Assembly (NCBI GenBank): GCA_017522015.1
Contig: JAFXAW010000037.1
Coordinates: 1-47,224, forward strand
Source: Oscillospiraceae bacterium
GTDB taxonomy: Bacteria > Bacillota > Clostridia > Oscillospirales > Oscillospiraceae
Direction of reading: 5' to 3'
DNA: 47,224 nucleotides
Shown here: one piece after another, positions 12,545-25,243 of the stretch
How positions within the stretch are numbered: position 1 is the stretch's first letter
Layout of the letters: each line of letters begins with the position of its first letter
Program-made: the position numbers and the translations under genes
The notes under the pieces: generated by a model
The model's database searches: none
What the model was told of the DNA's origin: nothing
What the model saw: only the letters and a program-made list of their open reading frames with translations

Positions 12545-12555
12545 CATAGTACAAG

Positions 12556-12692
12556 AAAACACCCGCAGCTTGTATCGAAGTTGCGGGTGTTCTTTGAAGA
12601 CTGACCCTAATTTTAATACAAATGCACCCCCCTTTTGAGGTTAGGGGGTGCAAATTGGGTTTAGGGGGTGCATTCAGTCGTTAGGGGGTGCA
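12556..12692. repeat. Repeat unit 1: GTATC-loop hairpin plus three 20-bp-phased GGGGGTGCA boxes
   Basis: In order on the plus strand: a hairpin with stem ACACCCGCA (12559-12567) / TGCGGGTGT (12582-12590) and loop containing TTGTATC; the box TTTGAAGACT (12593-12602); CCCTAATTTTAATACAAATG; an inverted TGCACCCCCC (12623-12632); and three copies of TTAGGGGGTGCA starting at 12641, 12661 and 12681, exactly 20 bp apart. The third copy lies inside the last codons of the membrane-protein gene, whose stop is at 12674-12676. Read on the minus strand, the hairpin followed by TTTTCTT is a plausible terminator for that gene. A second, closely similar copy is at 13426-13566. Confidence 0.85.
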
Positions 12693-13261
12693 AATTCATT
12701 ATTTGGAATTTGTTGTTTATTTGCTCTTTCTAGTTTTATATAAAAAACAACTGAAGAAATCACATCGGCACAAAAAACAAATTGTAATAATATCACCCAA
12801 ATAACTTCTTTAAGTGTGAAAGTATTATTTTTGATTGTAGCAATTACCGACGAAACAACAAAAAGCCCTGTCATAAATACTGACAGACAATCAATTACAA
12901 AAAGACCAATAGAAAAAGGAATTGTAAAGATTGTTATAACGAATACAGCACCTAAAGCAAAAATTAACACATACGCTGGAACTTGTGCTAATTTCATGAT
13001 CATCGCAGTCTTTGCTAATAAAATCGCATCCCACTTTTTATATATACTTACAAAAAAGCAAACGATGCTTAACATACCGGTCAGTATGCAATAGAGCAAC
13101 AATGCGGCAATTAGATATAAGGCATTACTGTCAAACACAGATTCCATTATGTAATTAAAAAAAGGGAATTTTGTTGAGAAGAAAACCGTAGCCAATGTAA
13201 ACAGAGCAAGATACGGAACAAGCACTATCGGAACGGAAATCGCAAATAACTTCTTATTCAT
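12674..13261 (-). CDS. Small multi-pass membrane protein of unknown function
   Basis: A 195-residue, AT-rich gene. The protein has about five hydrophobic segments (roughly 8-30, 48-72, 90-115, 118-140, 152-175) with Lys-rich ends and no motif I can tie to a known activity; I do not recognise the family with certainty. ATG at 13261 follows AAGGGGGC with about 7 nt spacing, and a TTGAAA-N17-CATAAT promoter lies just upstream, so it is probably expressed. Codon use and base composition differ clearly from the G+C-rich neighbours, suggesting transfer. Its last nine codons (ending NNEFAPPND) are written by the third GGGGGTGCA box of repeat unit 1. Confidence 0.8.
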   Translation of the reverse strand: MNKKLFAISVPIVLVPYLALFTLATVFFSTKFPFFNYIMESVFDSNALYLIAALLLYCILTGMLSIVCFFVSIYKKWDAILLAKTAMIMKLAQVPAYVLIFALGAVFVITIFTIPFSIGLFVIDCLSVFMTGLFVVSSVIATIKNNTFTLKEVIWVILLQFVFCADVISSVVFYIKLERANKQQIPNNEFAPPND

Positions 13262-13281
13262 ATTTTCGCCCCCTTTTATTC

Positions 13282-13354
13282 ATTATGTCATAAAACTCGC
13301 TATCTTTCAACGATTGTTGCCTATAATTTAACGATTACTTGTCTTTCAACGATT
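13282..13354 (-). promoter_or_regulatory. Tandem promoters with three AATCGTTRAA boxes upstream of the small membrane protein
   Basis: On the minus strand, TTGAAA (13305-13310) N17 CATAAT (13282-13287) is a near-consensus promoter 20 bp from the start codon, and TTGAAA (13344-13349) N17 TTATAG (13321-13326) is a second. Each -35 box is part of an 11-bp repeat whose plus-strand form is TTTCAACGATT (13305-13315, 13344-13354). A third, diverged copy, ATTTAACGATT, lies between them (13326-13336). The copies are 21 and 18 bp apart. A protein binding these boxes would cover the -35 elements; this is inference. Confidence 0.6.
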
Positions 13355-13425
13355 TGTAGTGAACATAAACGGTCGATTTGGAGATTTCACTCTCGAAAAG
13401 TTCTCAAAAATCTTATTTTAGGCAT

Positions 13426-13566
13426 AAAATAACCGTCATTCCGTTGTATCAGAATGACGGTTATTTTTTGAAGACTAACCCTAATTTTGATACAAATGCA
13501 CCCAGTTTTAAGGTTAGGGGGTGCAAAGTCATTTTAGGGGGTGCATTTTTGAGTCAGGGGGGTGCA
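13426..13566. repeat. Repeat unit 2: second copy of the hairpin plus phased GGGGGTGCA boxes
   Basis: A perfect 16-bp stem AAAATAACCGTCATTC (13426-13441) / GAATGACGGTTATTTT (13452-13467) with a loop containing TTGTATC is followed by TTTGAAGACT (from 13467), CCCTAATTTTGATACAAATG, TGCACCC (13497-13503), and TTAGGGGGTGCA at 13514 and 13534, with TCAGGGGGGTGCA at 13554: again exactly 20-bp spacing. From TTTGAAGACT to the first box it differs from unit 1 at only a handful of positions plus one indel. It ends directly at the stop codon of the 154-residue ORF (13567). Confidence 0.85.
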
Positions 13567-14031
13567 TTAGACATATTTCTTTCTGATTTCTATTACTCCC
13601 GATTCGCTCTTTTCAAAATAGCCATCAAAACAATAACGAGCATTCCACGCACGAACCTTGAATGTAAGATTCGTTAAATCAAGATGGGGATATCCAAAGT
13701 ATTTTCTCAAGTCATCATAAGAGATGTTATCGAGCAAAGACACTTCGATTTCTCCGCCAAATCTATTCTTGCCGTTTTCAAAAAATTCAATTGCAGCTTT
13801 CTTCGCATTAGCAAATGCAAGTACGCATTGGGTTAACTCTTCCTTGGACGAAGTGTCGAAGTGCTGCGTAGCAAAGCGCAAAAGGTAGGTATAATAATCA
13901 TCCGGGAAATAGTGTATAACAATCGGATCTTCAAATTGGTCATTTTTAATATAAACAGTTTCGGTGCCGTTTTCCTTTTGAATATCGACGTCATACTTTG
14001 GGAACAGAGCTTTGATAAACGAGAAATGCAT
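13567..14031 (-). CDS. Hypothetical 154-residue soluble protein
   Basis: An AT-rich gene for a soluble protein rich in aromatic and acidic residues (IHYFPDDYYTYLLRFATQHF, YDDLRKYFGYPHLDL). It has no TM segment, no signal peptide and no catalytic motif I recognise. ATG at 14031 follows AGGAGG with 7 nt spacing, and a TTGCGG-N17-TATAAT promoter precedes it. It lies between the tRNA-Ser hairpin and repeat unit 2, and was probably acquired with its neighbour. The size and composition resemble orphan immunity-type proteins, but nothing specific supports that reading. Confidence 0.75.
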   Translation of the reverse strand: MHFSFIKALFPKYDVDIQKENGTETVYIKNDQFEDPIVIHYFPDDYYTYLLRFATQHFDTSSKEELTQCVLAFANAKKAAIEFFENGKNRFGGEIEVSLLDNISYDDLRKYFGYPHLDLTNLTFKVRAWNARYCFDGYFEKSESGVIEIRKKYV

Positions 14032-14052
14032 ATTACATCCTCCTTCAACTTC

Positions 14053-14081
14053 ATTATACCATACAAAGAAAATAACCGCAA
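14053..14081 (-). promoter_or_regulatory. Promoter of the 154-residue ORF, overlapping the tRNA-Ser terminator hairpin
   Basis: On the minus strand TTGCGG (14076-14081) N17 TATAAT (14053-14058). The -35 box and part of the spacer lie in the 3' arm of the hairpin that follows tRNA-Ser, so the same DNA serves as terminator arm and promoter. Confidence 0.65.
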
Positions 14082-14105
14082 TCTTGTATCAAGATTACGG
14101 TTATT
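14071..14105 (-). terminator. Terminator hairpin of tRNA-Ser with the shared GTATC/GATAC loop
   Basis: The stem AATAACCG-c-AATCTT (14071-14085) / AAGATT-a-CGGTTATT (14091-14105) has the plus-strand loop GTATC. On the minus strand it begins 3 nt after the encoded CCA end and is followed by TTTTCTTTG, a Rho-independent terminator. Its arms and loop closely resemble the hairpin of repeat unit 2 (shared AAAATAACCG, TTGTATC and ACGGTTATT). Confidence 0.8.
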
Positions 14106-14108
14106 CTT

Positions 14109-14197
14109 TGGCGGAGAGTGTGGGATTCGAACCCACGGTACCGTGAGGTACACCTGATTTCGAGTCAGGCTCGTTATGACCACTTCGATAACTCTCC
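14109..14197 (-). tRNA. tRNA-Ser (anticodon CGA)
   Basis: The minus strand reads GGAGAGTTATCGAAGTGG at the 5' end, an anticodon arm CCTGA-CTCGAAA-TCAGG (anticodon CGA, decoding UCG), a long variable arm with CTCACGGTACCGTG, the T arm GTGGGTTCGAATCCCAC, the acceptor 3' strand CTCTCC, discriminator G and an encoded CCA (14109-14111). The long variable arm is the class II signature of serine tRNA. Confidence 0.97.
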
Positions 14198-25024: not shown

Positions 25025-25200
25025 TCAGTGGATCTTCGCAGGAGAAAGGGATATCCCTTGCCGAAGGAGCAATACTCTCAGGTGCCGCCGTAAGGCGGCG
25101 GGGACTGTGAAGGGATGATATTCTGGAGACACCCATTCAGTTGGGGGCCGAAGGGGCAAGGCGCAAAGCGCCAAATCTCTCAGGCAAAAGGACAGAAAGC
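25025..25200 (+). ncRNA. Tandem glycine riboswitch
   Basis: Two glycine aptamers lie in series. The first has GCAGGAGAAAGGG, the core CCGAAGGAGCAA, ACTCTCAGG and a long GC-rich P3b arm (GCCGCC-gtaa-GGCGGC), ending GGGACTG near 25107. The second has CTGGAGAC, CCGAAGGGGCAA, a GGCGC-aaa-GCGCC arm and CTCTCAGGCAAAAGGACAG (to about 25196). These are the conserved cores of the gcvT-type glycine riboswitch. It controls the downstream AGCS symporter through the hairpin at 25244-25274. Whether glycine turns the gene on or off cannot be decided without folding. Confidence 0.94.
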
Positions 25201-25243
25201 AAGTTTTTACCGCGCGGCGGAGCGCGGCTTGATTCTGTTTATC

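Follow-up and report, generated by a model that had tools for sequence, protein, structure and literature searches.

A two-gene island beside a tRNA-Ser gene of an Oscillospiraceae bacterium (assembly GCA_017522015.1, contig JAFXAW010000037.1; the 47,224 bp analyzed are called the window) very probably consists of mobile single-gene cassettes. We consider it quite probable that such cassettes insert in sense orientation directly behind the CCA of a tRNA or transfer-messenger RNA (tmRNA) gene, ahead of that gene's terminator, and that an enzyme supplied in trans moves them, a serine recombinase being the leading candidate. Below, RE is the right end of a cassette and LE the hairpin that opens it on the left. 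L-numbers denote stretches of public genomes, C17 and C26 are other contigs of the window genome, and G001 is the genome of another species of the same genus. Sequence comparisons place the left junction after CCA or the CA of an RE and the right junction after the CA of the RE; they also indicate that genes are exchangeable and that one cassette can occupy different tRNAs in two genera.

Layout of the island

In the direction of the tRNA, the order is tRNA-Ser-CCA, cassette 1, cassette 2, a hairpin, and the MATE terminator. The island is the lowest-G+C 1.5 kb in the window (35% vs 55%). Its parts are as follows.

14109..14197, minus strand: tRNA-Ser(CGA) gene, called by ARAGORN and the Rfam tRNA family; its ...CTCTCCGCCA 3' end is the docking point
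13469..14108, minus strand: cassette 1, 640 bp, from directly after the tRNA CCA to ...GTCTTCA; junctions after CCA and CA
14069..14108, minus strand: LE of cassette 1, hairpin AAGAATAACCG...GATACAA...CGGTTATTTTC; terminator-like match at 14107-14069
13567..14031, minus strand: gene A, 154 aa, unknown function
13469..13566, minus strand: RE of cassette 1
12595..13468, minus strand: cassette 2, 874 bp, beginning after the CA of cassette 1's RE
13425..13468, minus strand: LE of cassette 2, hairpin AAAAATAACCGTCATTCTGATACAACGGAATGACGGTTATTTT; fold -24.7 kcal/mol, z -9.5
12674..13261, minus strand: gene B, 195 aa, hydrophobic as judged by eye
12595..12698, minus strand: RE of cassette 2, core ending GTCTTCA
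12556..12594, minus strand: last hairpin of the array, LE-like; fold -20.5 kcal/mol

A preliminary description of the window had reported two minus-strand genes between MATE and tRNA-Ser, each with a copy of one repeat. This was confirmed, the copies sharing 83% identity across 60 bp and 79% across the following 61 bp. The ~135-bp unit proposed there is a genuine repeat, but its extent was not upheld: it comprises the RE of one cassette plus the following hairpin, which is the next LE or the end of the array. As that hairpin belongs to the following cassette or closes the array, the better limits of the repeat are 13469 and 12595, directly past ...GTCTTCA.

The RE of cassette 1 contains three copies of TGCACCCCC (two of them exact TGCACCCCCTAA) in 20-bp steps, an inverted GGGTGCA, and then TTTGTATCAAAATTAGGGTTAGTCTTCA; the first copy is slightly changed and precedes the end of gene A. 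The RE of cassette 2 has three TGCACCCCCTAA copies, also in 20-bp steps, and an inverted GGGGGGTGCA, and the stop of gene B lies within it. Both share the core TTTGTATNAAAATTAGGGTNAGTCTTCA. The 1.87-Mb genome has six exact occurrences of TGCACCCCCTAA, five of them in the island, and none of a backwards-read control pattern.

The hairpin beside the tRNA had also been noted before; the correction is that 14069-14108 belongs, as a third member, to the repeat-associated hairpin family. All three island hairpins are of this one family and fold strongly. That of cassette 1 (RNA fold -21.8 kcal/mol, z -8.3) is likely a terminator for the tRNA, and is followed by TATGGTATAAT, which looks promoter-like by eye. 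The last hairpin of the array, kept behind a different cassette in G001, is presumed to be the terminator of tRNA-Ser or a relic LE. Terminator-like matches in the island region number 7 vs 1.2 in shuffles. Of the promoters earlier proposed for each gene, TTGAAA-17-CATAAT was located at 13310-13282 before the second gene, but the region has 4 promoter-like matches vs 5.3 in shuffled sequence, which leaves the proposal weakly supported. At gathering score, only tRNA and glycine riboswitch families matched in an Rfam search of the window, with no family for the repeat or hairpins.

The same order of parts recurs on C17, where a third cassette (485 bp) with a different gene lies behind tRNA-Ser(GGA), and C26 terminates in a further cassette array with other genes.

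Ends and junctions of the cassettes

A tRNA or tmRNA forms the left boundary within 3 kb of 52 REs, some of which represent one locus fetched twice (Ser 30, Ala 15, tmRNA 3, Gln 2, Arg 1, Val 1), and CCA stands at the left junction in all 52. CA precedes all 41 distinct LE copies found by motif search; 23 of these follow a full tRNA or tmRNA gene, 6 an RE, 9 a tRNA 3' fragment (assigned by eye), and 3 other RE types. At the opposite end, 123 of 129 RE copies finish in CA, mainly as GTCTTCA (63), TTTGCCA (27), TTTTCCA (15), or GTTCCCA (7), and similarity among REs ceases past CA. A terminator-like hairpin directly follows 100 of 116 distinct REs, and 37 of 38 distinct left ends also have a hairpin behind them, vs 36 of 535 random positions. 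In six loci (L056, L060, L073, L085, L118, L119), one terminator sequence is found after both the tRNA CCA and the RE CA; the junction is therefore fixed to the base. The LE hairpin was also considered as an ordinary tRNA terminator, and this was rejected, as just 2 of 116 genomes have it following a CCRCCA end.

Read outward from CA, the RE is.a.AcT.ACCCTaATTtTgATACAA, the LE aa.aA.aacc...att.tgatacaa, and the tRNA end GcGGAg..gg.GgGatTcGAACcC. The RE and LE arms, about 25 bp each, agree at 55% per position vs 30% when shuffled, with the agreement centered on CA; RE and LE are therefore inverted half-sites around CA. The tRNA T-loop carries TTnGA in register with the RE and LE ends. The idea that the repeat unit serves as the recombination site needs amending: the RE is the right end of the cassette, but the docking point is the tRNA CCA end and not a repeat copy. 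At L180, which is the same place as L199, the RE is reduced to TTTGTATCATAATTAGGGTTATTAGCCA, and from such weaker REs it follows that the TGCACCCCC repeats are dispensable.

The RE was also considered as an RNA family. It had no Rfam match, and RNAalifold kept five pairs, two of them with changes on both sides; this interpretation was dropped because concerted change of a repeated protein-binding motif explains the paired changes equally well. An outer RE stem, present in the fold of the second RE, was likewise dropped because, as judged by eye, changes in tails such as GTTCCCA are not matched by changes in the pairing partner.

Evidence for exchange and movement

The same 974-bp cassette, with 970 identical bases, lies at a tRNA-Ala in L036 and at a tRNA-Ser in L065, which are two genera by title, and the flanks of the two loci are unrelated. 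L034, L046, L070, and L109 share a radical SAM segment whose identity, by 200-nt bin, stays at 87-100% across the 2.8 kb up to the RE (99-100% between L046 and L070), and the right flank of L034 is unrelated to those of the other three.

The window locus itself differs in the related species. In place of the 1514 bp of the island, G001 has a 446-bp cassette with another gene, which by eye resembles the gene of L102 at a tRNA-Ala. On the tRNA side 100 bases are identical, and from the last hairpin on identity is 92.5% over 200 bases. Relatives therefore do not all have the same two genes here; G001 has a different single cassette with both flanks conserved. This, with unrelated genes between repeat copies, supports the earlier proposal of mobile cassettes next to tRNA-Ser. 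The preliminary description had also suggested looking for cassette-free relatives. The C17-equivalent tRNA-Ser locus of G001 is cassette-free, the tRNA CCA leading straight into one hairpin, but a clean empty version of the window locus was not found.

Distribution and tRNA hosts

The exact RE-core pattern occurs in 107 stretches of public genome contigs, and among the 80 titles listed of these 107, most are Oscillospiraceae, Clostridia, or Clostridiales. Four of them are isolates: Gemmiger gallinarum DSM 109015, Oscillibacter valericigenes An411, Anaeromassilibacillus senegalensis An867, and Evtepia gabavorous KLE1738. A profile of 37 RE copies, applied with filters that lose weak matches, detected REs in 32 of 394 genomes of the order and 26 of 169 genera, at one to five copies each. 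The element is thus patchy and low in copy number.

A same-strand tRNA or tmRNA lies at most 4 kb upstream in 48 of the 107 stretches. Among 57 loci with at least 1.5 kb of upstream sequence, 36 have one within 2 kb, vs about 1.2 expected if 45 tRNAs per 2.2 Mb are assumed. Five loci have a tRNA on the opposite strand at a distance of at most 4 kb, but never at a junction. Stacked pairs of cassettes are present in the window, L027, L064, and L199. Short gene-less elements, located between some tRNAs and the first LE, comprise a terminator, a degenerate inverted tRNA 3' part, and a direct 20-30 nt tRNA end with CCA. In L017 and L128, the terminator behind tRNA-Ala has the tRNA end, inverted, on its far side: GGTCCACCA, hairpin, TGGTGGACC.

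Viral contigs of IMG/VR had no match to the exact RE core, nor did the LE pattern occur in viral contigs, and the island had no match in phage and plasmid records. A phage vehicle was rejected as well: a looser RE pattern gave three viral matches, which were taken for chance because their surroundings lack RE repeats.

Cargo genes

Gene calls were open frames of at least 45 aa before REs; the 102 such calls form 50 families, so that unrelated genes do lie between repeat copies. The copies are also at gene 3' ends, as the preliminary description expected: upstream sequence sufficed for 103 REs, and in 102 of these an open frame of 45 aa or longer stops no more than 330 nt away, which is a permissive test. 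A protein-by-protein Pfam scan of 46 proteins (45 of the 50 families plus one protein from C26) gave matches over the cut-off for 18. The families are radical SAM, DUF4304, SF0329, HTH (helix-turn-helix), methyltransferase, DMP19, GNAT, DUF4325, Imm26, LuxR-type, EamA, CoiA nuclease, ferredoxin, and RsgI-like; no recombinase or transposase family appeared among the 46 representative proteins. PADLOC defence matches are scattered among the cargo, and an immunity or defence role for part of it is a guess.

Gene A is found in 9 of the 394 genomes, and its best other match is in another family. A 98% identical protein occurs in L063 and an 85% identical one in a cassette at the tRNA-Ser of L100; against Pfam it matched only DUF7683, below the cut-off (E 0.038). 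Gene B matched no Pfam family and has homologues of 25-38% identity in 7 of 394 genomes besides its own. The L034 gene encodes radical SAM mobile pair protein B (NCBIfam TIGR04470), and the sequence cluster to which it belongs (L045, L046, L055, L070, L109, L116, L130) terminates in the same RE.

Between two REs of L048 (516-2682) are a gene for a 509-aa methyltransferase-like protein and, in reverse orientation, one for 218 aa. The larger protein matches RrnaAD just over the cut-off and Eco57I below it, and the two genes are perhaps a restriction-modification pair.

Candidate enzyme and proposed mechanism

Site-specific recombination in trans is the likely means of movement; on whether a serine recombinase is the mover, our judgement is evenly balanced. 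A same-strand serine recombinase gene or gene end precedes the RE in nine places (L024, L046, L070, L072, L095, L109, L161, L176, L192), and such genes are absent from tRNA-bound cassettes. L046, L070, and L109 share one and the same recombinase-RE arrangement, and in L024 and L176 no cargo separates gene and RE. The recombinases of L072 and L176 are short remains: the L072 frame matches DUF2800 in Pfam, with only its end resembling a serine recombinase, and the L176 fragment has no Pfam match and was called by the recombinase profile alone. A match in L124 was dropped (E 0.001, no Pfam support).

The L034 cassette has an LE and sits at a tmRNA-like end (by eye; ARAGORN called none). The first 35 bases of its body are the tail of the recombinase gene found ahead of the same genes in L046, L070, and L109, and the cassette looks like a cut-down serine-recombinase element. 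The radical SAM operon of L034, L045, L046, L070, and L109 lies between a serine recombinase gene end and the RE and is near-identical across several titled genera.

In the mechanism we propose, a circle (RE-CA-LE) would recombine with a tRNA end at the CA dinucleotide, the enzyme being provided in trans. The joined cassette ends would form inverted half-sites around CA, TTGTATCANAATNNNGGTTATTNGC-CA-AAGAATAACCGNNATNNTGATACAA, and the chromosomal partner would be the tRNA 3' end, whose T-loop antisense ATTCGAAC would stand in register with TTTTGATAC of the cassette ends. A large serine recombinase would be the mover, with cassettes as cut-down relatives of elements made up of serine recombinase gene, cargo, and RE. 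Insertion would be nearly harmless because, judged from sequence, the LE hairpin would end the tRNA transcript, a promoter near the LE would drive the cassette gene, and the old terminator would end the cassette transcript.

Several observations weigh against this scheme. Distinct left ends open with another hairpin in 14 of 38 cases, lacking the GATAC-like motif at its place, and the terminator, as the right half of the docking site, is not conserved. No intact tRNA is found within 2 kb of 21 of the 57 loci, and tRNA fragments or serine-recombinase neighbors account for some of these, not all. The free C17-equivalent site of G001 may be a relic because its remaining hairpin is LE-like. In some pairs with the same gene, the RE or LE has diverged further than the gene itself, so that ends are exchanged too. 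No cassette circle was seen, and no cassette with both ends carries a recombinase among the 46 proteins scanned with Pfam. Serine recombinase genes show no association with REs across genomes (25 of 32 RE-positive vs 300 of 362 RE-negative), and one RE-positive genome without such a gene is 100% complete. Opposite-strand serine recombinase genes also occur near REs in L024, L095, and L116; because these enzymes are common here and opposite-strand ones too lie near REs, the recombinase-RE neighborhood may partly reflect shared landing sites. L161, moreover, has a separate LE between the serine recombinase gene and the cargo.

As a further observation, the second, opposite-strand serine recombinase gene of L024 and L095 converges on the far side of the RE.

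Alternative explanations

The cassettes could instead be integrase-less kin of classical elements that integrate at tRNA genes, with a visiting tyrosine integrase acting on tRNA 3' ends to move them. The target is indeed a tRNA 3' end, and the gene-less elements L060, L073, L085, L105, L118, and L119 end in a 20-30 nt tRNA 3' end resembling a classical duplicated core. Upstream of the L098 cassette, a 3' fragment of tRNA-Ser stands right behind the end of a tyrosine integrase gene, and tyrosine recombinases are present in six of the seven RE-positive genomes without a serine recombinase. Yet RE and tRNA share only CA, several tRNA families serve as target, and a tyrosine-integrase seed matched only L022, L098, and L121 among 5509 open frames from 218 loci, the integrases of L022 and L121 lying across the RE and facing it; the RE core is also missing from IMG/VR and the island from phage and plasmid records. 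We therefore regard this explanation as unlikely. That housekeeping Xer recombinases do the work, as for Acinetobacter dif modules, is very improbable: RE-positive genomes do encode tyrosine recombinases of Xer size (about 300-340 aa), and a patchy RE across many genera would suit, but half-sites of ~25 bp around CA are unlike the 11-6-11 layout of Xer sites.

Inverted ends, a passenger gene without a transposase, and hairpins at the insertion point would be expected of non-autonomous elements of the transposase type, such as miniature inverted-repeat transposable elements (MITEs) or mobile insertion cassettes. At the junctions read, however, target duplication is limited to CA, orientation is fixed, and the tRNA 3' site is strict; no transposase partner was seen in a systematic search that used recombinase seeds only, and we hold this reading improbable. 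Spread through RNA, by reverse transcription and reinsertion of transcripts cut after the tRNA CCA and the CCA-like RE end, seems highly improbable. It would explain why RE tails imitate tRNA ends (GCCA, TCCA, CCCA, TTCA), why cassettes lie in sense orientation, and why an inverted tRNA end directly follows the terminator in L017 and L128, as in fold-back copying; the right junction, though, is precise at the DNA level, and both-side changes occur only in the TGMACC/GGTKCA arm, where a repeated protein-binding motif explains them equally well. A static 3' regulatory element of ordinary genes, inherited vertically, would fit the position of REs at gene 3' ends beside terminators, but one cassette occurs at unrelated tRNAs in two genera, different genes occupy one locus within one genus, and the RE is in only 32 of 394 genomes. 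Unless assemblies are chimeric we hold it refuted, and give it almost no chance.

Relation to known systems

Integron cassettes form short arrays of promiscuous genes, mostly one per cassette, with a recombination site at the 3' side, and clusters of attC sites lacking integron-integrases (CALINs) have no integrase and are moved in trans (PMC11389934). The present cassettes resemble them in having unrelated genes (50 families) before a common 3' site, in arrays such as the stacked pairs; unlike them, they dock at the tRNA CCA end, and each brings a terminator-like hairpin at its left end. Crossover in integron attC sites is at G|TTRRRY, whereas here it would be at CA, with the junction ...CA in 123 of 129 copies. 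No integron integrase (TIGR02249) exceeded the curated cut-off in the 32 RE-positive genomes, and weak matches occurred in 31 of these and in all 14 control genomes. On this integrase and junction evidence an integron was rejected, and the earlier remark that the unit does not look like attC holds.

Large-serine-recombinase elements of Clostridia have an inverted site with a central dinucleotide. The cassettes share such a site, and recombinase genes lie beside REs in nine places, but the cassettes themselves consist of one gene, lack a recombinase, and dock at the CCA of many different tRNAs. The dif/pdif modules of Acinetobacter are small gene modules between inverted 11-6-11 sites, shuffled in trans without their own recombinase. 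Small size, inverted sites, and the lack of a recombinase are common to both; the ~25-bp half-sites around CA, the tRNA target, and occurrence in Clostridia set the cassettes apart. Mobile insertion cassettes and MITEs, too, are transposase-less, with inverted ends and a passenger gene, but the present cassettes show no target duplication beyond CA and are strict in site and orientation. Integrative and conjugative elements, integrative and mobilizable elements, cis-mobilizable elements, and tycheposons land at tRNA or tmRNA 3' ends and stack, as the cassettes do. The latter differ in that they mostly measure 0.5-1.5 kb, hold one gene, lack both an integrase and a duplicated tRNA core, and insert after CCA. 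Tycheposons are described as phage satellites (PMC11389934). The L034 gene is a member of the radical SAM mobile pair (TIGR04470), and its cluster ends in an RE; NCBI names the gene as mobile, and the RE with the serine recombinase offers a mechanism.

The tRNA-docked cassettes work like integron cassettes or dif modules yet miss a defining feature of each. The open-access literature, searched without subscription papers or preprints, contained no description of such cassettes at tRNA ends, and they look like a little-noticed route for passing single genes among bacteria. We suggest, tentatively and with more doubt than confidence, that gut Clostridia have a second integron-like gene-collecting system, in which serine-recombinase elements spin off two-ended single-gene cassettes that dock in tandem at tRNA CCA ends. 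Docking at almost any suitable tRNA would then be possible because the element ends mimic the tRNA T-loop plus CCA. Integrons are the textbook case of single-gene collection; a second system, if real, would be tRNA-docked with one recognizable sequence pattern, and would account for the jumps between genera of small genes, such as those for an immunity protein, for GNAT acetyltransferases, and for the radical SAM pair. In so minimal a system, with half a kilobase, one gene, and a two-base junction, the pull that tRNA ends have long been noted to exert on mobile DNA becomes testable. The mover enzyme, once found, might serve as a compact means of inserting DNA at neutral positions behind tRNA genes.

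Other observations

Between the left hairpin and the gene, L031, L060, L105, L112, and L127 have chains of small palindromes (e.g., GTTCCTCTCGGAAC, GATATATC) and two to five copies of AATCGTTRAA in ~20-bp steps. Elsewhere in the window, a glycine riboswitch aptamer (Rfam RF00504) lies at 25113-25205.

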